NCBI RefSeq assembly: GCF_000002985.6
Contig: NC_003283.11
Span: 17,361,501-17,425,500, forward strand
Source: Caenorhabditis elegans
Lineage: Eukaryota; Nematoda; Chromadorea; Rhabditida; Rhabditidae
DNA length: 64,000 nt
Direction of reading: 5' to 3'
Of the stretch, positions 22,712 through 64,000 are shown in pieces (the stretch's first letter is position 1; every line of letters starts with the position of its first letter). A program made the position numbers and the translations under genes. The notes under the pieces were generated by a model. That model searched no databases. It saw nothing but the letters and a program-made list of their open reading frames with translations, and was not told the origin of the DNA.

Positions 22712-25700
22712 CTGTTTTCAAAATTTTTAAAACCGAGAATTATGGTGAATATGGAAATTCAAGACTTCACTGGTTTTCAAAATTTTTAAAACCGAAAATT
22801 ATGGTGAATATGGAAATTCAAATGTGCACTGGTTTTCAAAATTTTTAAAACCGAGAATTATGGTGAATATGGAAATTCAAGACTTCACTGGTTTTCAAAA
22901 TTTTTAAAACCGAAAATTATGGTGAATATGGAAGTTCAAATGTGCACTGGTTTTCAAAATTTTTAAAACCGAGAATTATGGTGAATATGGAAATTCAAGA
23001 CTTCACTGGTTTTCAAAATTTTTAAAACCGAGAATTATGGTGAATATGGAAATTCAAATGTGCACTGGTTTTCAAAATTTTTTAAAGCGAGATTTATGGT
23101 GAATATGGAAATTCAAATGTGCACTGGTTTTCAAAATTTTTTAAACCGAGAATTATGGTGAATATGGAAATTCAAATGTGCACTGGTTTTCAAAATTTTT
23201 TAAACCGAGAATTATGGTGAATATGGAAATTCAAGACTTCACTGGTTTTCAAAATTTTTAAAACCGAGAATTATGGTGAATATGGAAATTCAAATGTGCA
23301 CTGGTTTTCAAAATTTTTAAAACCGAGAATTATGGTGAATATGGAAATTCAAGACTTCACTGGTTTTCAAAATTTTTAAAACCGAGAATTATGGTGAATA
23401 TGGAAATTCAAGACTTCACTGGTTTTCAAAATTTTTTAAACCGAGAATTATGGTGAATATGGAAATTCAAGATTTCACTGGTTTTCAAAATTTTTTAAAC
23501 CGAGAATTATGGTGAATATGGAAATTCAAGACTTCACTGGTTTTCAAATCTTTTAAAACCGAGAATTATGGTGAATATGGAAATTCAAATGTGCACTGGT
23601 TTTCAAAATTTTTAAAACCGAGAATTATGGTGAATATGGAAATTCAAGACTTCACTGGTTTTCAAAATTTTTAAAACCGAGAATTATGGTGAATATGGAA
23701 ATTCAAATGTGCACTGGTTTTCAAAATTTTTTAAACCGAGAATTATGGTGAATATGGAAATTCAAGATTTCACTGGTTTTCAAAATTTTTTAAACCGAGA
23801 ATTATGGTGAATATGGAAATTCAAATGTGCACTGGTTTTCAAAATTTTTAAAACAGAGAATTATGGTGAATATGGAAATTCAAATGTGCACTGGTTTTCA
23901 AAATTTTTTAAAACCGAGAATTATGGTGAATAAGGAAATTCAAATGTGCACTGGTTTTCAAAATTTTTTAAAACCGAGAATTATGGTGAATAAGGAAATT
24001 CAAATGTGCACTGGTTTTCAAAATTTTTTAAAACCGAGAATTATGGTGAATAAGGAAATTCAAATGTGCACTGGTTTTCAAAATTTTTTAAAGCGAGATT
24101 TATGGTGAATATGGAAATTCAAATGTGCACTGGTTTTCAAAATTTTTAAAACAGAGAATTATGGTGAATATGGAAATTCAAATGTGCACTGGTTTTCAAA
24201 ATTTTTTAAAACCGAGAATTATGGTGAATAAGGAAATTCAAATGTGCACTGGTTTTCAAAATTTTTTAAACCGAGATTTATGGTGAATATGGAAATTCAA
24301 ATGTGCACTGGTTTTCAAAATTTTTTAAAGCGAGATTTATGGTGAATATGGAAATTCAAATGTGCACTGGTTTTCAAAATTTTTTAAAGCGAGATTTATG
24401 GTGAATATGGAAATTCAAATGTGCACTGGTTTTCAAAATTTTTTAAAGCGAGATTTATGGTGAATATGGAAATTCAAATGTGCACTGGTTCTCAAAATTT
24501 TTAAAACAGAGAATTATGGTGAATATGGAAATTCAAATGCGCACTGGTTCTCAAAATTTTTAAAACAGAGAATTATGGTGAATATGGAAATTCAAATGTG
24601 CACTGGTTCTCAAAATTTTTAAAACAGAGAATTATGGTGAATATGGAAATTCAAATGTGCACTGGTTTTCAAAATTTTTAAAACAGAGAATTATGGTGAA
24701 TATGGAAATTCAAATGTGCACTGGTTTTCAAAATTTTTTAAAGCGAGATTTATGGTGAATATGGAAATTCAAATGTGCACTGGTTCTCAAAATTTTTAAA
24801 ACAGAGAATTATGGTGAATATGGAAATTCAAATGTGCACTGGTTTTCAAAATTTTTAAAACAGAGAATTATGGTGAATATGGAAATTCAAATGTGCACTG
24901 GTTTTCAAAATTTTTAAAACAGAGAATTATGGTGAATATGGAAATTCAAATGTGCACTGGTTCTCAAAATTTTTAAAACAGAGAATTATGGTGAATATGG
25001 AAATTCAAATGTGCACTGGTTTTCAAAATTTTTAAAACAGAGAATAATGGTGAATATGGAAATTCAAATGTGCACTGGTTTTCAAAATTTTTAAAACAGA
25101 GAATTATGGTGAATATGGAAATTCAATTGTGCACTGGTTCTCAAAATTTTTAAAACAGAGAATTATGGTGAATATGGAAATTCAAATGTGCACTGGTTTT
25201 CAAAATTTTTAAAACAGAGAATTATGGTGAATATGGAAATTCAAATGTGCACTGGTTTTCAAAATTTTTAAAACAGAGAATTATGGTGAATATGGAAATT
25301 CAAATGTGCACTGGTTTTCAAAATTTTTTAAACCCAGAATTATGGTGAATATGGAAATTCAAATGTGCACTGGTTTTCAAAATTTTTAAAACCGAGAATT
25401 ATGGTGAATATGGAAATTCAAATGTGCACTGGTTTTCAAAATTTTTAAAACCGAGAATTATGGTGAATATGGAAATTCAATTGTGCACTGGTTTTCAAAA
25501 TTTTTTAAACCCAGAATTATGGTGAATATGGAAATTCAAATGTGCACTGGTTTTCAAAATTTTTTAAACAGAGAATTATGGTGAATATGGAAATTCAAAT
25601 GTGCACTGGTTCTCAAAATTTTTCAAATGTACACTGGTTTTCAAAATTTTTTAAACCGAGAATTATGGTGAATATGGAAATTCAAGACTTCACTGGTTTT

Positions 25701-28700
25701 CAAAATTTTTAAAACCGAAAATTATGGTGAATATGGAAATTCAAATGTGCACTGGTTTTCAAAATTTTTAAAACCGAAAATTATGGTGAATATGGAAGTT
25801 CAAATGTGCACTGGTTTTCAAAATTTTTAAAACCGAGAATTATGGTGAATACAGAAATTCAAATGTGCACTGGTTTTCAAAATTTTCAAAACCGAGAATT
25901 ATGGTGAATAAGGAAATTCAAATGTGCACTGGTTTTCAAAATTTTTAAAACCGAGAATTATGGTGAATAAGGAAATTCAAATGTGCACTGGTTTTCAAAA
26001 TTTTTAAAACCGAGAATTATGGTGAATATGGGAATTCAAATGTGCACTGGTTTTCAAAAATTTTTAAAGCGAGATTTATGGTGAATATGGAAATTCAAAT
26101 GTGCACTGGTTTTCAAAAATTTTTAAAGCGAGATTTATGGTGAATATGGAAATTCAAATGTGCACTGGTTTTCAAAATTTTTTAAAGCGAGATTTATGGT
26201 GAATATGGAAATTCAAATGTGCACTGGTTCTCAAAATTTTTAAAACAGAGAATTATGGTGAATATGGAAATTCAAATGTGCACTGGTTTTCAAAATTTTT
26301 AAAACAGAGAATTATGGTGAATATGGAAATTCAAATGTGCACTGGTTTTCAAAAATTTTTAAAGCGAGATTTATGGTGAATATGGAAATTCAAATGTGCA
26401 CTGGTGCTCAAAATTTTTAAAACAGAGAATTATGGTGAATATGGAAATTCAAATGTGCACTGGTTTTCAAAAATTTTTAAAGCGAGATTTATGGTGAATA
26501 TGGAAATTCAAATGTGCACTGGTTTTCAAAATTTTTTAAAGCGAGATTTATGGTGAATATGGAAATTCAAATGTGCACTGGTGCTCAAAATTTTTAAAAC
26601 AGAGAATTATGGTGAATATGGAAATTCAAATGTGCACTGGTTTTCAAAATTTTTTAAAGCGAGATTTATGGTGAATATGGAAATTCAAATGTGCACTGGT
26701 GCTCAAAATTTTTAAAACAGAGAATTATGGTGAATATGGAAATTCAAATGTGCACTGGTTTTCAAAATTTTTAAAACAGAGAATTATGGTGAATATGGAA
26801 ATTCAAATGTGCACTGGTTTTCAAAATTTTTAAAACAGAGAATTATGGTGAATATGGAAATTCAAATGTGCACTGGTTTTCAAAATTTTTTAAAGCGAGA
26901 TTTATGGTGAATATGGAAATTCAAATGTGCACTGGTGCTCAAAATTTTTAAAACAGAGAATTATGGTGAATATGGAAATTCAAATGTGCACTGGTTTTCA
27001 AAATTTTTAAAACAGAGAATTATGGTGAATATGGAAATTCAAATGTGCACTGGTTTTCAAAATTTTTAAAACAGAGAATTATGGTGAATATGGAAATTCA
27101 AATGTGCACTGGTTTTCAAAATTTTTAAAACAGAGAATTATGGTGAATATGGAAATTCAAATGTGCACTGGTTTTCAAAATTTTTAAAACAGAGAATTAT
27201 GGTGAATATGGAAATTCAAATGTGCACTGGTTTTCAAAATTTTTAAAACAGAGAATTATGGTGAATATGGAAATTCAAATGTGCACTGGTTTTCAAAATT
27301 TTTAAAACAGAGAATTATGGTGAATATGGAAATTCAAATGTGCACTGGTTTTCAAAATTTTTTAAACCGAGAATTATGGTGAATATGGAAATTCAAATGT
27401 GCACTGGTTTTCAAAATTTTTTAAACCGAGAATTATGGTGAATATGGAAATTCAATTGTGCACTGGTTCTCAAAATTTTTAAAACAGAGAATTATGGTGA
27501 ATATGGAAATTCAATTGTGCACTGGTTCTCAAAATTTTTAAAACAGAGAATTATGGTGAATATGGAAATTCAAATGTGCACTGGTTTTCAAAATTTTTAA
27601 AACAGAGAATTATGGTGAATATGGAAATTCAAATGTGCACTGGTTTTCAAAATTTTTAAAACAGAGAATTATGGTGAATATGGAAATTCAAATGTGCACT
27701 GGTTTTCAAAATTTTTAAAACAGAGAATTATGGTGAATATGGAAATTCAAATGTGCACTGGTTTTCAAAATTTTTTAAACCGAGAATTATGGTGAATATG
27801 GAAATTCAAATGTGCACTGGTTTTCAAAATTTTTTAAACCGAGAATTATGGTGAATATGGAAATTCAATTGTGCACTGGTTCTCAAAATTTTTAAAACAG
27901 AGAATTATGGTGAATATGGAAATTCAAATGTGCACTGGTTTTCAAAATTTTTAAAACAGAGAATTATGGTGAATATGGAAATTCAAATGTGCACTGGTTT
28001 TCAAAATTTTTAAAACAGAGAATTATGGTGAATATGGAAATTCAAATGTGCACTGGTTTTCAAAATTTTTAAAACAGAGAATTATGGTGAATATGGAAAT
28101 TCAATTGTGCACTGGTTTTCAAAATTTTTTAAACCCAGAATTATGGTGAATATGGAAATTCAAATGTGCACTGGTTTTCAAAATTTTTTAAACCCAGAAT
28201 TATGGTGAATATGGAAATTCAAATGTGCACTGGTTTTCAAAATTTTTTAAACCCAGAATTATGGTGAATATGGAAATTCAAATGTGCACTGGTTTTCAAA
28301 ATTTTTTAAACAGAGAATTATGGTGAATATGGAAATTCAAATGTGCACTGGTTTTCAAAATTTTTTAAACCGAGAATTATGGTGAATATGGAAATTCAAA
28401 TGTGCACTGGTTTTCAAAATTTTTAAAACAGAGAATTATGGTGAATATGGAAATTCAAATGTGCACTGGTTTTCAAAATTTTTTAAACCCAGAATTATGG
28501 TGAATATGGAAATTCAAATGTGCACTGGTTTTCAAAATTTTTTAAACCGAGAATTATGGTGAATATGGAAATTCAAATGTGCACTGGTTTTCAAAATTTT
28601 TTAAACCGAGAATTATGGTGAATATGGAAATTCAAATGTGCACTGGTTTTCAAAATTTTTAAAACAGAGAATTATGGTGAATATGGAAATTCAATTGTGC

Positions 28701-31700
28701 ACTGGTTTTCAAAATTTTTTAAACCCAGAATTATGGTGAATATGGAAATTCAATTGTGCACTGGTTTTCAAAATTTTTAAAACAGAGAATTATGGTGAAT
28801 ATGGAAATTCAAATGTGCACTGGTTTTCAAAATTTTTAAAACAGAGAATTATGGTGAATATGGAAATTCAAATGTGCACTGGTTTTCAAAATTTTTAAAA
28901 CAGAGAATTATGGTGAATATGGAAATTCAAATGTGCACTGGTTTTCAAAATTTTTAAAACAGAGAATTATGGTGAATATGGAAATTCAATTGTGCACTGG
29001 TTTTCAAAATTTTTTAAACCCAGAATTATGGTGAATATGGAAATTCAAATGTGCACTGGTTTTCAAAATTTTTTAAACCCAGAATTATGGTGAATATGGA
29101 AATTCAAATGTGCACTGGTTTTCAAAATTTTTTAAACAGAGAATTATGGTGAATATGGAAATTCAATTGTGCACTGGTTTTCAAAATTTTTTAAACCCAG
29201 AATTATGGTGAATATGGAAATTCAAATGTGCACTGGTTTTCAAAATTTTTTAAACCGAGAATTATGGTGAATATGGAAATTCAAATGTGCACTGGTTTTC
29301 AAAATTTTTTAAACAGAGAATTATGGTGAATATGGAAATTCAAATGTGCACTGGTTTTCAAAATTTTTTAAACCCAGAATTATGGTGAATATGGAAATTC
29401 AAATGTGCACTGGTTTTCAAAATTTTTAAAACAGAGAATTATGGTGAATATGGAAATTCAATTGTGCACTGGTTTTCAAAATTTTTTAAACCCAGAATTA
29501 TGGTGAATATGGAAATTCAAATGTGCACTGGTTTTCAAAATTTTTTAAACCGAGAATTATGGTGAATATGGAAATTCAAATGTGCACTGGTTTTCAAAAT
29601 TTTTTAAACAGAGAATTATGGTGAATATGGAAATTCAAATGTGCACTGGTTTTCAAAATTTTTTAAACCCAGAATTATGGTGAATATGGAAATTCAAATG
29701 TGCACTGGTTTTCAAAATTTTTAAAACAGAGAATTATGGTGAATATGGAAATTGAAATGTGCACTGGTTTTCAAAATTTTTAAAACAGAGAATTATGGTG
29801 AATATGGAAATTCAATTGTGCACTGGTTTTCAAAATTTTTTAAACCCAGAATTATGGTGAATATGGAAATTCAAATGTGCACTGGTTTTCAAAATTTTTT
29901 AAACCCAGAATTATGGTGAATATGGAAATTCAAATGTGCACTGGTTTTCAAAATTTTTTAAACAGAGAATTATGGTGAATATGGAAATTCAAATGTGCAC
30001 TGGTTTTCAAAATTTTTTAAACCCAGAATTATGGTGAATATGGAAATTCAAATGTGCACTGGTTTTCAAAATTTTTAAAACAGAGAATTATGGTGAATAT
30101 GGAAATTCAATTGTGCACTGGTTTTCAAAATTTTTTAAACCGAGAATTATGGTGAATATGGAAATTCAAATGTGCACTGGTTTTCAAAATTTTTTAAACC
30201 GAGAATTATGGTGAATATGGAAATTCAAATGTGCACTGGTTTTCAAAATTTTTTAAACCCAGAATTATGGTGAATATGGAAATTCAATTGTGCACTGGTT
30301 TTCAAAATTTTTAAAACAGAGAATTATGGTGAATATGGAAATTCAAATGTGCACTGGTTTTCAAAATTTTTAAAACAGAGAATTATGGTGAATATGGAAA
30401 TTCAAATGTGCACTGGTTTTCAAAATTTTTTAAACCCAGAATTATGGTGAATATGGAAATTCAATTGTGCACTGGTTTTCAAAATTTTTAAAACAGAGAA
30501 TTATGGTGAATATGGAAATTCAAATGTGCACTGGTTTTCAAAATTTTTAAAACAGAGAATTATGGTGAATATGGAAATTCAATTGTGCACTGGTTTTCAA
30601 AATTTTTTAAACCCAGAATTATGGTGAATATGGAAATTCAATTGTGCACTGGTTTTCAAAATTTTTAAAACAGAGAATTATGGTGAATATGGAAATTCAA
30701 ATGTGCACTGGTTTTCAAAATTTTTTAAACCCAGAATTATGGTGAATATGGAAATTCAATTGTGCACTGGTTTTCAAAATTTTTAAAACAGAGAATTATG
30801 GTGAATATGGAAATTCAAATGTGCACTGGTTTTCAAAATTTTTAAAACCGAGAATTATGGTGAATATGGAAATTCAAATGTGCACTGGTTTTCAAAATTT
30901 TTTAAACCGAGAATTATGGTGAATATGGAAATTCAAATGTGCACTGGTTTTCAAAATTTTTAAAACAGAGAATTATGGTGAATATGGAAATTCAAATGTG
31001 CACTGGTTTTCAAAATTTTTTAAACAGAGAATTATGGTGAATATGGAAATTCAAATGTGCACTGGTTTTCAAAATTTTTTAAACCGAGAATTATGGTGAA
31101 TATGGAAATTCAAATGTGCACTGGTTTTCAAAATTTTTAAAACAGAGAATTATGGTGAATATGGAAATTCAAATGTGCACTGGTTTTCAAAATTTTTTAA
31201 ACCGAGAATTATGGTGAATATGGAAATTCAAATGTGCACTGGTTTTCAAAATTTTTAAAACAGAGAATTATGGTGAATATGGAAATTCAAATGTGCACTG
31301 GTTTTCAAAATTTTTTAAACCGAGAATTATGGTGAATATGGAAATTCAAATGTGCACTGGTTTTCAAAATTTTTAAAACAGAGAATTATGGTGAATATGG
31401 AAATTCAAATGTGCACTGGTTTTCAAAATTTTTAAAACAGAGAATTATGGTGAATATGGAAATTCAAATGTGCACTGGTTTTCAAAATTTTTAAAACAGA
31501 GAATTATGGTGAATATGGAAATTCAATTGTGCACTGGTTTTCAAAATTTTTTAAACCCAGAATTATGGTGAATATGGAAATTCAAATGTGCACTGGTTTT
31601 CAAAATTTTTAAAACAGAGAATTATGGTGAATATGGAAATTCAAATGTGCACTGGTTTTCAAAATTTTTAAAACAGAGAATTATGGTGAATATGGAAATT

Positions 31701-33026
31701 CAATTGTGCACTGGTTTTCAAAATTTTTAAAACAGAGAATTATGGTGAATATGGAAATTCAATTGTGCACTGGTTTTCAAAATTTTTAAAACAGAGAATT
31801 ATGGTGAATATGGAAATTCAATTGTGCACTGGTTTTCAAAATTTTTTAAACAGAGAATTATGGTGAATATGGAAATTCAAATGTGCACTGGTTTTCAAAA
31901 TTTTTTAAACCCAGAATTATGGTGAATATGGAAATTCAAATGTGCACTTGTTTTCAAAATTTTTTAAACCCAGAATTATGGTGAATATGGAAATTCAAAT
32001 GTGCACTGGTTTTCAAAATTTTTAAAACAGAGAATTATGGTGAATATGGAAATTCAAATGTGCACTGGTTTTCAAAATTTTTTAAACCCAGAATTATGGT
32101 GAATATGGAAATTCAAATGTGCACTGGTTTTCAAAATTTTTAAAACAGAGAATTATGGTGAATATGGAAATTCAAATGTGCACTGGTTTTCAAAATTTTT
32201 TAAACCCAGAATTATGGTGAATATGGAAATTCAAATGTGCACTGGTTTTCAAAATTTTTTAAACCGAGAATTATGGTGAATATGGAAATTCAAATGTGCA
32301 CTGGTTTTCAAAATTTTTTAAACCGAGAATTATGGTGAATATGGAAATTCAAATGTGCACTGGTTTTCAAAATTTTTTAAACCGAGAATTATGGTGAATA
32401 TGGAAATTCAAATGTGCACTGGTTTTCAAAATTTTTTAAACAGAGAATTATGGTGAATATGGAAATTCAAATGTGCACTGGTTTTCAAAATTTTTTAAAC
32501 AGAGAATTATGGTGAATATGGAAATTCAAATGTGCACTGGTTTTCAAAATTTTTTAAACCGAGAATTATGGTGAATATGGAAATTCAAATGTGCACTGGT
32601 TTTCAAAATTTTTTAAACAGAGAATTATGGTGAATATGGAAATTCAAATGTGCACTGGTTTTCAAAATTTTTAAACCGAGAATTATGGTGAATATGGAAA
32701 TTCAAATGTGCACTGGTTTTCAAAATTTTTTAAACCGAGAATTATGGTGAATATGGAAATTCAAATGTGCACTGGTTTTCAAAATTTTTTAAACAGAGAA
32801 TTATGGTGAATATGGAAATTCAAATGTGCACTGGTTCTCAAAATTTTTCAAATGTACACTGGTTTTCAAAATTTTTTAAACCCAGAATTATGGTGAATAT
32901 GGAAATTCAAATGTGCACTGGTTTTCAAAATTTTTAAACCGAGAATTATGGTGAATATGGAAATTCAAATGTGCACTGGTTTTCAAAATTTTTTAAACCG
33001 AGAATTATGGTGAATATGGAAATTCA
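22712..33026. repeat. 59-bp satellite array, about 175 units
   Basis: Tandem head-to-tail units of 59 bp (some 58 or 60) built from ACTGGTTTTCAAAATTTTT, a variable junction (AAAACCGAG, AAAACAGAG, AAACCCAG or AAAGCGAG), AATTATGGTGAATATGGAAA and TTCAAATGTGC. Variants are clustered: GACTTCACTGG forms dominate the left edge, AAAGCGAGATTTATGG forms about 24.1-24.8 and 26.0-26.9 kb, and TTCAATTGTGC forms alternate with AAACCCAG at 28-32 kb. No gene lies within. The unit length is not a multiple of three, so ORFs in it are accidental. Confidence 0.97.
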
Positions 33027-59795: not shown

Positions 59796-60289
59796 GTAAT
59801 TAAGAGACTGCTATTTTTTTGTAGGTGTGTGATGTGTAGGAATGTATTGCGTGTACCTAATGCGTGAATATTGATTATACTGGATGTGTCGGGTCGATTT
59901 TTGGAACATGAAAAATGTAGGTATTTTTTGAAAAATGTTTGGAGAACAGTTGAATTCCCGATCCCTCGTCGTGTTGAGTCCTCCTCCATCCAATCAATAT
60001 CATCACCTTCCCACATCTCCACATATGGACAGCCATGCTCCCACATCTCTACATATTTTCGATTTGGACCGTTCTCCAACATGGATGAACCGATTTTCGA
60101 ATTTCTTAAGATTTTTGTCTCCCCGAAAGGAGACGTTCCAAAATTTATAGCTAACGCCAAATTTCTTTGGGTCAGATTCAAGGCGAGCCTGGGTCGCAGT
60201 AGTGGCAAGAACCCGAATTATCGGGACCACCAGCTGCTAGGGAGGTTTATGGTTGTGGTGGGCCATTATGAATTTTAGATCCGAGGATC

Positions 60290-61751
60290 GTACATACCAT
60301 ATTGCGGGGTCAGGTAGAGGGAAACACCCGCCAACAGATTGGTCCACCCGCATAATCACTGATTTTGTGACTGCAGTCGGTGGTCTGTCAACAGGCTTAA
60401 CCCCCTACCCGCCCATCCTTCACACTCCATCCAGGGTTCCTCTTAGCCAGGGCTGTCGTGATCCGAAGATCAACTAGCGTCTGGCCGAGTTACCCGCCTG
60501 AGGCCTCACGGCCTTCCCGTCCATCCTAAGCCTCACAGCCATCAAGAAGGGGAACCTATCCGTTCTTTTCGTTCCAGCGAAGCTTTCCTTTCCCTTCCAC
60601 CGTGTAGGTTTCAACACATGTGTGGTTGGTTCCGGTAGTTCTTCGATGAATGTGAACTTTTTAGAGATTGGACAGTGTGGTGGCGCCTTTGCCTAGTGCC
60701 GAAGCACCCGTCAATGCCAATTGTCCTCACTTTCGCCAAGGCGTAACCCCCTAAGGGACTCATTTTCTAGTCGGCCCTACCACAATTGTGCTAACTTGTG
60801 CAAGCTTTCGCCTCGTCGAGGTTGGTTCTAAGAAACACGACTCGGCTCCGGCAAGCATACCCGTCCACAACCATGGCGACCCATAAGGTCTAAGAGCTAA
60901 CTAGGGCGAGGGCACCTTTCAAGTCTACTTGACTGCTTGGGGAGCGTCATCCACAGATGAAGCGTACTAGCATCAAGTCAGCTATCCCAAACAGTAAAAC
61001 GACCATTCAACTTGAAAGGTAGGAGAACACGTTACTCTCCCAACTGCTTTCGGACCTTAGATAAGCCGTCATCTTGAATGGTCGATTGAGACCTTTCGCG
61101 ATTCGAGCAAATCCGGCCCTCGGCAGTAAAACGCAGAGAGAGCAACGAGCAGTACCGAAGTACTCTTCCATTCCATCATCAACCGCAAGGGTTTCAGGAC
61201 TGGGAACTCCCTCTAGCTCTTGCTAGAAGGAGCTTCCGCCTCTTCAGCAACCTCCCCGGGGAGGTCTCCAAGGCGGGACTCCTCTCTGACCGAAGTCAGT
61301 GAGGAGAATTGGACCTGCTGCCTTTTAATCCTTTGACCCCTAAGGATCTCCGGATTGGTGCTTCCTCTTAAAAAGAGAAAGCCAGCAGCCCCTCCCGTCT
61401 ATTGACCCCCGTGGGGATCTCAAGACAGGGCAGCCCTTCTAGCTCCTGCTAGAAGGTGCATCTGATCTCTCCTATGACGCCCGGGATGGACGCCTCAAGA
61501 ACAGGACTTCCTTCTGACCTTGTCAGAAAGAAGAATTTCTTCTGCTCTTGCAGCCTCCGGAGAGCTTACAAGAACAGGACTTCCCCACATGGGAAGAATT
61601 TTGGAGGGAAAAGGTGAAGGAGCTTTCACCATTGTGGTGTTGGAAGCACCGAGAAGACTTGAAGAGAGTGGAGAGTTTGTGGAGTTGATTGACGTTTGAT
61701 GTTATTTGCAGAGTTATGCCAGGACTTTTGGCGTGCGGCGTGCCCTGGAGG
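60290..61751 (-). other. probable 3' UTR of the NeSL/R2-type element
   Basis: 1.46 kb downstream of the reverse transcriptase stop, without ORFs, GC-richer than the surroundings and full of short stems. On the minus strand three UUCG tetraloops closed by C-G occur (plus-strand CGAA at 60700-60703, near 61155 and at 61291-61294). An 11-bp stem joins 61000-61010 to 61074-61084. The left end of the element is not clear; no poly(A)-like T-run is seen at 60.25-60.30 kb. Confidence 0.5.
61147..61600 (-). ncRNA. tandem array of structured hairpin modules in the retrotransposon 3' region
   Basis: Stems (plus coordinates): 61207-61232, 61279-61306, 61361-61381, 61435-61456 and 61507-61533 are single hairpins with stems of 9-12 bp. 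They alternate with two-strand stems 61236-61242/61270-61276, 61327-61331/61352-61356, 61394-61400/61423-61429 and 61542-61550/61569-61577, which enclose inner GC-rich hairpins. The stem sequences differ between units but pairing is kept. Imperfect positions are nearly all A-C on plus, G-U on minus. It is an RNA-level structure on the minus strand by inference; it is not a known RNA family to me. Confidence 0.55.
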
Positions 61752-64000
61752 CTAGTTGGTAGGCCTCACAGGGGCCTTCTGCAATCTTTCCTTTTTCCAT
61801 CCATTTCCAGCAGGTTTTGCGTGTCCGTTTCGCATTGGATTTGGTATGTACGCTTCACCGAAGATGTGATTCCAGTACGTATTCTTACTGTGTTCGAGAA
61901 CAGTAGCACAGAGTTCTGGAATGGCACTGTTGATCACGCTTCCCTTGATTCCCAATTCCTTGAGACTGTCACCTGTCGGTTTCCACCATGATCCAAGTGA
62001 CCCGATTATAATCGGAAGGACGGTCAGCTTGGTTCCCGATTTCCGCAGGTGGGCGAATCCCGTCTCGTATTTGTCGATTTTTGCCTGCCAGCTCCTTTCC
62101 ATCGCTTCTACTCCATGCTCATATGGGCATGCGACATCTGCCAAGATGATTTGTTTTTCATCAGGGCTTTTGAGGCAGATATCTGGACGGAGTCTGCTGA
62201 ATCCTGGAAGTTCTTCATCAATCTTCATTGTCCAATTCTTTTTTCCACCGCTTTCAATGAGAGTTTTGACCTTGTGCAAGACGGCATCATGCCTCTCAGT
62301 GATCTTCTTTGAGAAACCAAACGGACAGTTTTGCAGTATGTGCCACTGCGTCTCCAGATCCTTCCCACAACGCCTACAGACTTTTGATTTGGATTTGTCG
62401 TAGTTGTTGTAGTTGCAGGCCAGTAGATTCAGACGTGCTTTATGCACAAAGCGGTGACATGCAAGGCTCAGGTTGCCACCTTTTGTGACAAACCTGTTGC
62501 TTGCTGGGTGCTGTTGCACGACTCGGACGACTTTGCTTTTCACTACTTTGGTGGTGTTGAATCGATGTTTGAGTGCTTTGTTCACTTGATCCTTCAGTGA
62601 GCGCTGCAGCTTTTTCGCATCTTCTTCCGTGTAGATCCTTTCCATGCTTTCGCTTGTGGCTTGGACGAGCAAAGCGATTTTCCCGTTCTTTACTACCATT
62701 TTCAGCCTGTAAAGTGGGGAGTCGCCAGTGATGGCCAAGTTCCTCATCACATCCCGCAGTCTCGTAATGGAATTGTACCCAAATTCGCTCCTATTGATCC
62801 TCTCCTCAACGTTGAGATAGTCGGCTATATCATCCATAGTGACTGTGCTCTTCTTTGACTCTTTCTTTACTACTTCTTCCGCCAGTGATGTGAATAATGT
62901 TTTGATGTATTCATCATCTGACCAGAGTTTTTTAAGAGTAGAGACAAGGAACGTAATCATGCAGGTTGTCTTGGGACATGCTACACCAAGCCCTCCATCC
63001 TTCACTGGAAGATGGATGTACTCCAGTGGTGACCCTCGGACTGGGATTCTATGCATCACTTTGACTCCTCGAATGACGATATTTGCAAACATTTTTATCT
63101 CCGTGATCAGTGGTATGGAATTTCCATACATGTATGTCAGTTTGGACAGCGTGAATGTTTTAAGACAGTCCAGCTTTTGCGGCGGCGTCAGGTCACTTTT
63201 GACCACGCATTCAAGTTCCTTCGTGACTTTCTCCAGTAGATCCATTGCTGAAATTCTTGCTGCCGAACCCGTCTGAACTCCCAAATATTTGTAAGTGGTG
63301 TTCTCGTCAAGGCATCGAATGGCGTTTCCTTTAAGCTTAATTGATGCGCTCCGCACAACTCCTTTTTGGATCACAAGTGATGCACATTTTGCTGGCTTGA
63401 AAATAAGATTCAGGGGCGTGCAATCATTGTCTAGCTTTGACAGTTCTCGCTGGAGCTGGTCGGGGGAATCCGTTAAAATCGCCATGTCGTCGGCGAACGC
63501 CAGTACCTTAATTCTTGTTTTGAGGCACTGGTGACCATTTGCAGACTCCAGGTGTCTTCTAATCACAGTTTCCAGGCATATATTGAAAAGTGTTGGTGAA
63601 ATGGGATCGCCTTGTTTCACCCCAGACATTATTGGGATTCGATCGCTTTTTTCCGTCGCGTTCTTAACCCTCATTGATGCTCCCTGGTACATATCTTTGA
63701 CCACATCGACGACCATTTGCGGAAATCCATACGCTGTCAGCGCGTACTCAATCAATTCGTGCGGGATGGATCCAAACGCGTTCGTCAGATCCAGCCATGC
63801 CACCGCCAGGTTTCTTCGTTTTCCTTTGGCCACGTCGATTGCTGTTCTGAGTATTGCTAGACTCTCATTGCAACCTTCGCGCTCCTGGAACCCTCGCTGA
63901 CATTTGCTCAACACATTTGGTACAGCTCTAATTCTCCGGTTCCACAGACTGGAGTAAAGTTTGTAGATCACAGGCATCAGGCTAATTGGGCGCCAGTTTT
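61752..64000 (-). CDS. NeSL/R2-clade non-LTR retrotransposon reverse transcriptase-endonuclease (5' cut by window edge)
   Basis: The frame is open from the right edge (NWRPISL precedes the first Met at 63977, a conserved RT segment, so the start lies outside) to the stop at 61752. Counting from that Met: motif A WLDLTNAFGSIPHEL (61-75, Asp63), motif B GVKQGDPISPTLFN (119-132), catalytic FADD (161-164) and thumb-side YKYLG. Further on are CRRCGKDLETQWHILQNC, a C-x2-C-x8-H-x4-C zinc knuckle, and RPDICLKSP with ADVACPYE and KIDKYE, the restriction-like endonuclease core. This order is that of R2/R4/NeSL elements, which insert by target-primed reverse transcription; NeSL of Caenorhabditis targets spliced-leader genes. 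No frameshift or stop is seen in 749 codons, so the element may be young. Confidence 0.92.
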   Translation of the reverse strand, partial: NWRPISLMPVIYKLYSSLWNRRIRAVPNVLSKCQRGFQEREGCNESLAILRTAIDVAKGKRRNLAVAWLDLTNAFGSIPHELIEYALTAYGFPQMVVDVVKDMYQGASMRVKNATEKSDRIPIMSGVKQGDPISPTLFNICLETVIRRHLESANGHQCLKTRIKVLAFADDMAILTDSPDQLQRELSKLDNDCTPLNLIFKPAKCASLVIQKGVVRSASIKLKGNAIRCLDENTTYKYLGVQTGSAARISAMDLLEKVTKELECVVKSDLTPPQKLDCLKTFTLSKLTYMYGNSIPLITEIKMFANIVIRGVKVMHRIPVRGSPLEYIHLPVKDGGLGVACPKTTCMITFLVSTLKKLWSDDEYIKTLFTSLAEEVVKKESKKSTVTMDDIADYLNVEERINRSEFGYNSITRLRDVMRNLAITGDSPLYRLKMVVKNGKIALLVQATSESMERIYTEEDAKKLQRSLKDQVNKALKHRFNTTKVVKSKVVRVVQQHPASNRFVTKGGNLSLACHRFVHKARLNLLACNYNNYDKSKSKVCRRCGKDLETQWHILQNCPFGFSKKITERHDAVLHKVKTLIESGGKKNWTMKIDEELPGFSRLRPDICLKSPDEKQIILADVACPYEHGVEAMERSWQAKIDKYETGFAHLRKSGTKLTVLPIIIGSLGSWWKPTGDSLKELGIKGSVINSAIPELCATVLEHSKNTYWNHIFGEAYIPNPMRNGHAKPAGNGWKKERLQKAPVRPTN

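Follow-up and report, generated by a model that had tools for sequence, protein, structure and literature searches.

A tandem array of predicted two-hairpin RNA modules at the start of the 3′ UTR of a NeSL-1-type retrotransposon in Caenorhabditis elegans

We found that the 3′ UTR of a NeSL-1-type element of C. elegans begins with an array of six tandem, diverged RNA modules at 61163-61600 on the minus strand. The array is an unusual RNA domain in a known element and is most likely under selection. The reading we prefer, with a probability of roughly 0.45, is that it constitutes a selected domain of the sense RNA that would act in cis on the coding RNA and would be non-essential for target-primed reverse transcription (TPRT), the signal for which would reside in the last ~330 nt of the element. 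Positions are those of the window, by which we mean the whole 64-kb stretch of DNA analysed. An earlier note on this DNA had described tandem two-hairpin modules in this region. These proved real and resolve into six units of 62-80 nt running from 61600 to 61163, and the hairpin it had quoted, CCTTCTAGC-TCCT-GCTAGAAGG, was located at 61435-61456.

The element lies on the minus strand, with its ORF stop at 61752 and its end at 60182 against an SL1 gene remnant. Its 3′ UTR therefore extends from 61751 to 60182 (1.57 kb), and the array forms the first part of it. The window contains the C-terminal part of a single ORF, comprising the reverse transcriptase (RT) and the C-terminal region (61752-63998, minus strand); the ORF runs past the window and was read as a whole, with 1693 aa, in the extended locus L046. 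Pfam models identified an RT domain (RVT_1, PF00078, E 2.3e-35) and an Ulp1-type cysteine protease (Peptidase_C48, PF02902, E 4.8e-5, 23.7 bits against a cut-off of 20.7). For a C-terminal restriction-like endonuclease there was no Pfam match; residues resembling its cysteine-histidine motif were noticed by eye in the translation. Among proteins of known structure, R2 (9nl3, E 8e-54) comes closest in sequence, and R2 or R2-like proteins take the top five places among ten such relatives in this tree-free comparison. Searching viral and prokaryote collections for relatives of the RT returned none. An SL1 exon is present upstream of the element (L046 7712-7733), a 5S rRNA gene is found near it (L046 7879-7997), and the SL1 repeat unit resumes downstream from 60181, so that the 3′ flank consists of a remnant of this unit, the target site (59990-60181, minus strand). 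The combination of an Ulp1-like protease and RT, R2 relatives, an SL1 exon upstream and an SL1 unit from 60181 therefore indicates a NeSL-1-type element. Judged from its sequence, it is almost certainly NeSL-1 of C. elegans, a member of the NeSL clade in the R2 group that was reportedly described by Malik and Eickbush in 2000.

Each module comprises a hairpin A followed by a helix B with an internal loop, as predicted by folding the units separately. All lie on the minus strand, and in its 5′-to-3′ direction they are U1 (61539-61600), with A1 at 61596-61580 and B1 at 61577-61542; U2 (61459-61538), with A2 at 61533-61507 and the upper stem of B2 at 61494-61476; U3 (61386-61458), with A3 at 61456-61435 and B3 at 61429-61394; U4 (61311-61385), with A4 at 61382-61360 and B4 at 61356-61327; U5 (61235-61310), with A5 at 61306-61279 and B5 at 61276-61236; and U6 (61163-61234), with A6 at 61233-61206 and B6, whose lower stem is weak, at 61203-61168. 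The minus strand of 61147-61620 has a predicted folding energy of -221.0 kcal/mol against -175.6 for shuffled sequences (z -7.2), compared with a z of -3.9 for the plus strand and of -1.7 to +0.4 for either strand of three ORF stretches used as controls. Folding was better on the minus than on the plus strand in all six units. In the ensemble of the full 3′ UTR, mean pair probabilities reached at least 0.76 in 11 of the 12 module stems tested (B2 being represented by its upper stem only), and the lower stem of B6 had a mean of 0.07. In B2-B6 and not in B1 (five of six helices, as cut by hand), the internal loop carries a common NGA on its 5′ side, which ends in GA. The internal loop of B5 may resemble a k-turn, a tentative likeness seen in B5 and B6 and not in B2-B4. 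Rfam covariance models run against 60150-61760 gave 0 matches up to an E of 1. A covariance model built from the six N-padded modules recovered only U5 and U2 among its own six units, probably because the pads were counted as letters, and was discarded as evidence.

The stem sequence differs from module to module, and the earlier note had claimed that the two arms change together. This was borne out by seven A hairpins (six from the window and one from the relative L037, their arms aligned by hand), in which 71 of 72 cells pair; swapping arms between modules lowered pairing to 70%. The six modules were also aligned by structure; this alignment, hand-made to fit the structure and N-padded, leans towards it, and in it 97.6% of 127 cells pair and double changes occur in 20 of 28 pairs. 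None of 500 shuffles reached any of the five measures computed on this alignment. MAFFT, which uses no structure, still aligned the B parts, from which RNAalifold predicted nine pairs, seven showing double changes. When entire modules were aligned from sequence alone, the A hairpins were misaligned, and these alignments were rejected.

A DNA search identified at least three more copies in which the array is mostly present, namely L036 and L035 (5S/SL1 cluster) and L038 (contig 3). Of the base pairs, 140 of 141 are kept in L036, 138 of 141 in L035 and 105 of 112 in L038, which is without most of unit 2 and where 29 pairs were dropped for gaps. When the 24 stem substitutions of L038 were placed at random, 98.7 pairs (sd 1.4) were kept on average against the 105 observed (P 1e-4), in a test whose structure was taken from the window, a choice that leans towards that structure. 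Changes from Watson-Crick to A-C pairs, which are tolerable to an antisense fold only, numbered 2 in L038 against 8.4 expected; those to G-U pairs numbered 5 against 7.3, and double changes 2 against 0.6 (P 0.10). Stem sites of L038 changed at 24 of 224 positions and unpaired sites at 26 of 158, a trend only (P 0.12). Counting covariation across the four copies yielded just two double-change pairs, and 63 of 500 shuffles did as well; with so few copies, covariation between them is weak in the array.

Conservation of the array was compared with that of its surroundings. Between the window and L036 the array is identical at 453 of 459 sites (98.7%), against 191 of 237 fourfold codon sites (81%, P 3e-17) and 77 of 93 sites in the spacer between stop codon and array (P 4e-9). 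Between the window and L038 it is identical at 343 of 395 sites (87%), against 76 of 170 fourfold sites in the part of the ORF compared (45%, P 3e-24) and 35 of 54 fourfold sites where the ORF ends next to the UTR (P 2e-4). Here similarity to L038 rises, and recombination is possible. In L038 the identity of the array does not significantly exceed that of the whole spacer (113/140, P 0.10); one half of the spacer (61704-61605), picked post hoc, is identical at 68 of 93 sites (P 0.002). The stretch by the stop codon (61751-61705) has 45 of 47 sites in common with L038 and 42 of 47 with L036. A short hairpin is predicted directly 3′ of the stop codon, at 61718-61748. Downstream of the array, the middle of the 3′ UTR (60521-61145, minus strand) is conserved, with identities of 298/322 to L038 (over 61145-60819) and 320/327 to L036; for the terminal part the corresponding identities are 261/326 and 337/338. 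In the comparison with L038, the array is better conserved than this terminal domain (P 0.015). Judged by these identities, constraint covers the whole 3′ UTR and not the array alone. Gene conversion among copies could add to this conservation.

We further asked which strand folds, having identified helices strand-symmetrically and counted G-U and A-C pairs on the minus strand. Under a permissive rule, the window array has 12 G-U against 4 A-C pairs (one-sided P 0.038), the rest of the window 3′ UTR 13 against 12, and the L037 module 1 against 2. The earlier note had put the asymmetry at six of seven imperfect positions, which overstates it: an excess of G-U is present in the window and absent within L038. 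Equal frequencies in other copies, which the same note had regarded as speaking against a minus-strand fold, were seen in L038 (8 to 8 under the permissive rule and 1 to 2 under a stricter one) and not in L035 or L036, each of which, like the window, has 4 to 1 under the stricter rule. In the sense folds of the window and L038, changes from Watson-Crick to G-U outnumber those to A-C by 15 to 7 (one-sided P 0.067), a count that pools both directions, so that pairs overlap; the antisense folds likewise gave 15 to 7. Three observations make minus-strand folding the better reading: this 15-to-7 excess, the location of the array within the sense transcript, and the fact that each of the six units folds better on the minus strand.

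L037 is a diverged and degenerate relative, with an RT piece that is 66% identical and contains one internal stop. It has one A+B module, at 5129-5062, about 80 nt after the end of the ORF. A DNA search with the stretch containing this module returned only itself; compared as a possible counterpart of U6, the module had local scores of 34 against U6 of L038, 34 against U2 of the window and 21 against U6 of the window. A descriptor scan, designed after the L037 module was known, recovered this module, four of the six window modules and one module in the L038 array. Its other matches were seven in the 64 kb of the window, both strands counted, and single ones outside the element parts in L037, L039, L041 and L043. 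The module probably predates the split from the L037 lineage and was then amplified in the NeSL-1 lineage; module loss in the L037 lineage is a possible alternative.

The 3′-terminal domain (60182-60520, minus strand) is the best candidate for RT recognition, with a predicted fold that covaries in eight copies. Over its terminal ~330 nt RNAalifold predicted 99 pairs, 16 with double changes, in eight copies that were selected for holding this domain, 5′-truncated copies retaining the 3′ end anyway. The domain, without an Rfam match, is a candidate new RNA family. Its role was approached through L042, where positions 667-1928 (contig 1, 6770666-6771927) represent an SL1-headed, non-autonomous NeSL-like element. 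It looks full-length, starting exactly with a complete SL1 exon (one mismatch), continuing with a stretch like the 5′ end of the window element and finishing with the standard 3′ end, the terminal ~330 nt included, and it is inserted outside the SL1 cluster, flanked by a target-site duplication of 38 bp (36 of 38 matching); no second SL1 sequence was found at the insertion site. BLAST matched it to the window element at both ends only, with no ORF or array detected, and the module descriptor had no match on its sense strand. For the middle ~850 nt, nothing corresponding was detected in the window element. About 925-1200 of L042 matches a dispersed repeat with more than ten further sites, at some of which it is tandemly arranged with a spacing of about 104 bp. 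An RNA with no detectable ORF or array was thus retrotransposed, presumably by a NeSL-type protein. In R2Tg the last 65-67 nt of the 3′ UTR are enough for TPRT (PMC12222951). On the strength of this short requirement and of the insertion of L042, which lacks a detectable array, we assign the TPRT signal to the terminal domain, within whose ~330 nt RT recognition would probably reside. L042 is a single case and may belong to another NeSL family. It provides genomic evidence for how NeSL-type RNAs begin, at the SL1 start; a 2013 paper states that, to its authors' knowledge, the transcription of NeSL elements had not been addressed by experimental data (PMC3636483).

The function that we propose starts from what was observed: where the array lies, which strand carries the ORF, the homology among the tandem units, their predicted fold and their conservation. 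A two-hairpin module 3′ of the stop codon and 5′ of the RT-recognition domain would have undergone tandem duplication into the six-unit array, which would fold in the sense, SL1-driven NeSL-1 transcript. There it may stabilise the coding mRNA, support its translation or help to package it as an RNP. No poly(A) tract closes the sequence of the element, from which we infer that the mRNA acted on is tailless, and the TPRT signal, likewise placed by inference, would lie apart from the array in the terminal domain. A role tied to the coding RNA is suggested by L042, since this element has the SL1 exon and the 3′ domain and shows neither ORF nor array. A multivalent version, in which the six-fold array would act in cis in protein loading, protection and translation of the SL1-headed tailless mRNA, separately from the TPRT signal, is put forward more tentatively. 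The earlier note had suggested that the modules stabilise the RNA or serve as RT docking sites, and the first half of this suggestion is close to our preferred reading. Docking would mean that the modules bind the NeSL-1 ORF protein, several per RNA, favouring cis use or TPRT, and we consider it rather unlikely. It agrees with an R2-group RT encoded upstream on the same strand, with a modular array whose pair retention and sense-strand fold are signs of selection, with the NGA that repeated modules share in five of six B helices and with the better conservation of the array than of the terminal domain in L038; moreover, R2 proteins bind structured 3′ UTRs (PMC12222951). Docking for TPRT is weakened, however, by the insertion of L042, where no array was detectable. 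R2Tg requires just the last ~65-67 nt (same source), and the diverged relative L037 shows a single module, both of which also argue against docking. The modules may still bind the ORF protein in addition to the terminal domain.

Two truncated insertions at the edge of the array raise the prospect that it stops the RT or marks an RNA cut site, as a role or as a side effect. L039 and L040, on different contigs and with different flanks, both start at CTTGAAACC (locus positions 2884 and 2111), which lies 3-7 nt past the A6 stem, with BLAST matches ending at 61203 and 61199. Over 277 aligned sites there are no changes private to both, indicating that two independent events ended at one place. These are only two events, however, and neither has a recognisable target-site duplication. 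The RT can pass the array, as L035, which starts at 61782, and L038, which reaches at least 63431, extend beyond it, and L041 is truncated far downstream, at 60596. We regard a barrier as improbable. Still less probable is a selfish or neutral tandem duplication of fold-prone sequence, conserved through recent common origin or gene conversion. Such an origin would fit the tandem structure and the varying number of units (six in the window, a single one in L037 and U2 largely absent from L038), gene conversion could occur among copies that share a 5S/SL1 cluster, and the array does not differ significantly from the whole spacer in L038. Yet in L036 the spacer (77/93) falls below the array (453/459), pairs in L038 are retained above the null, and the arm sequences are distinct while their pairing is kept.

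The 3′ UTR RNAs of R2 (R2Bm, R2Tg) are comparable to that of the window element in being structured 3′ UTRs of a related element. Whereas recognition in R2Tg lies in the last ~67 nt (PMC12222951), the window element has tandem modules upstream of its terminal domain, for which we found no parallel in the accessible parts of the R2 literature surveyed. Its layout is reminiscent of the tandem xrRNA and dumbbell structures of flaviviruses and of the upstream pseudoknot domain of TMV; this is a likeness of layout only, as the folds differ, and no homology is claimed. Flavivirus and TMV RNAs are without poly(A), and in tailless viral RNAs tandem structures serve stability, translation or packaging. 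In the 3′ UTRs of these viruses, RNA structures, some of them duplicated, precede a terminal replication element (PMC6466055, PMC4683447). If our preferred reading is true, the array would be the retrotransposon counterpart of duplicated 3′ UTR elements in RNA viruses. To our knowledge, it is poorly understood how R2-group elements without poly(A) tails achieve RNA stability, translation and handover of the RNA to their own protein. A repeated, conserved RNA domain that precedes the presumed TPRT signal, and does so in a model animal, lends itself directly to tests by deletion and binding, and R2 proteins are under development for gene insertion (PMC12222951). No description of the array was found in the literature searched, including the accessible parts of PMC4640811, PMC7650587 and PMC3636483, with the founding NeSL-1 paper outside this search. 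Elsewhere in the window, a 59-bp repeat array of about 171 copies spans 10 kb at 22714-32852, and 57170-57353 matches the Rfam ceN115 sRNA, a C. elegans family.
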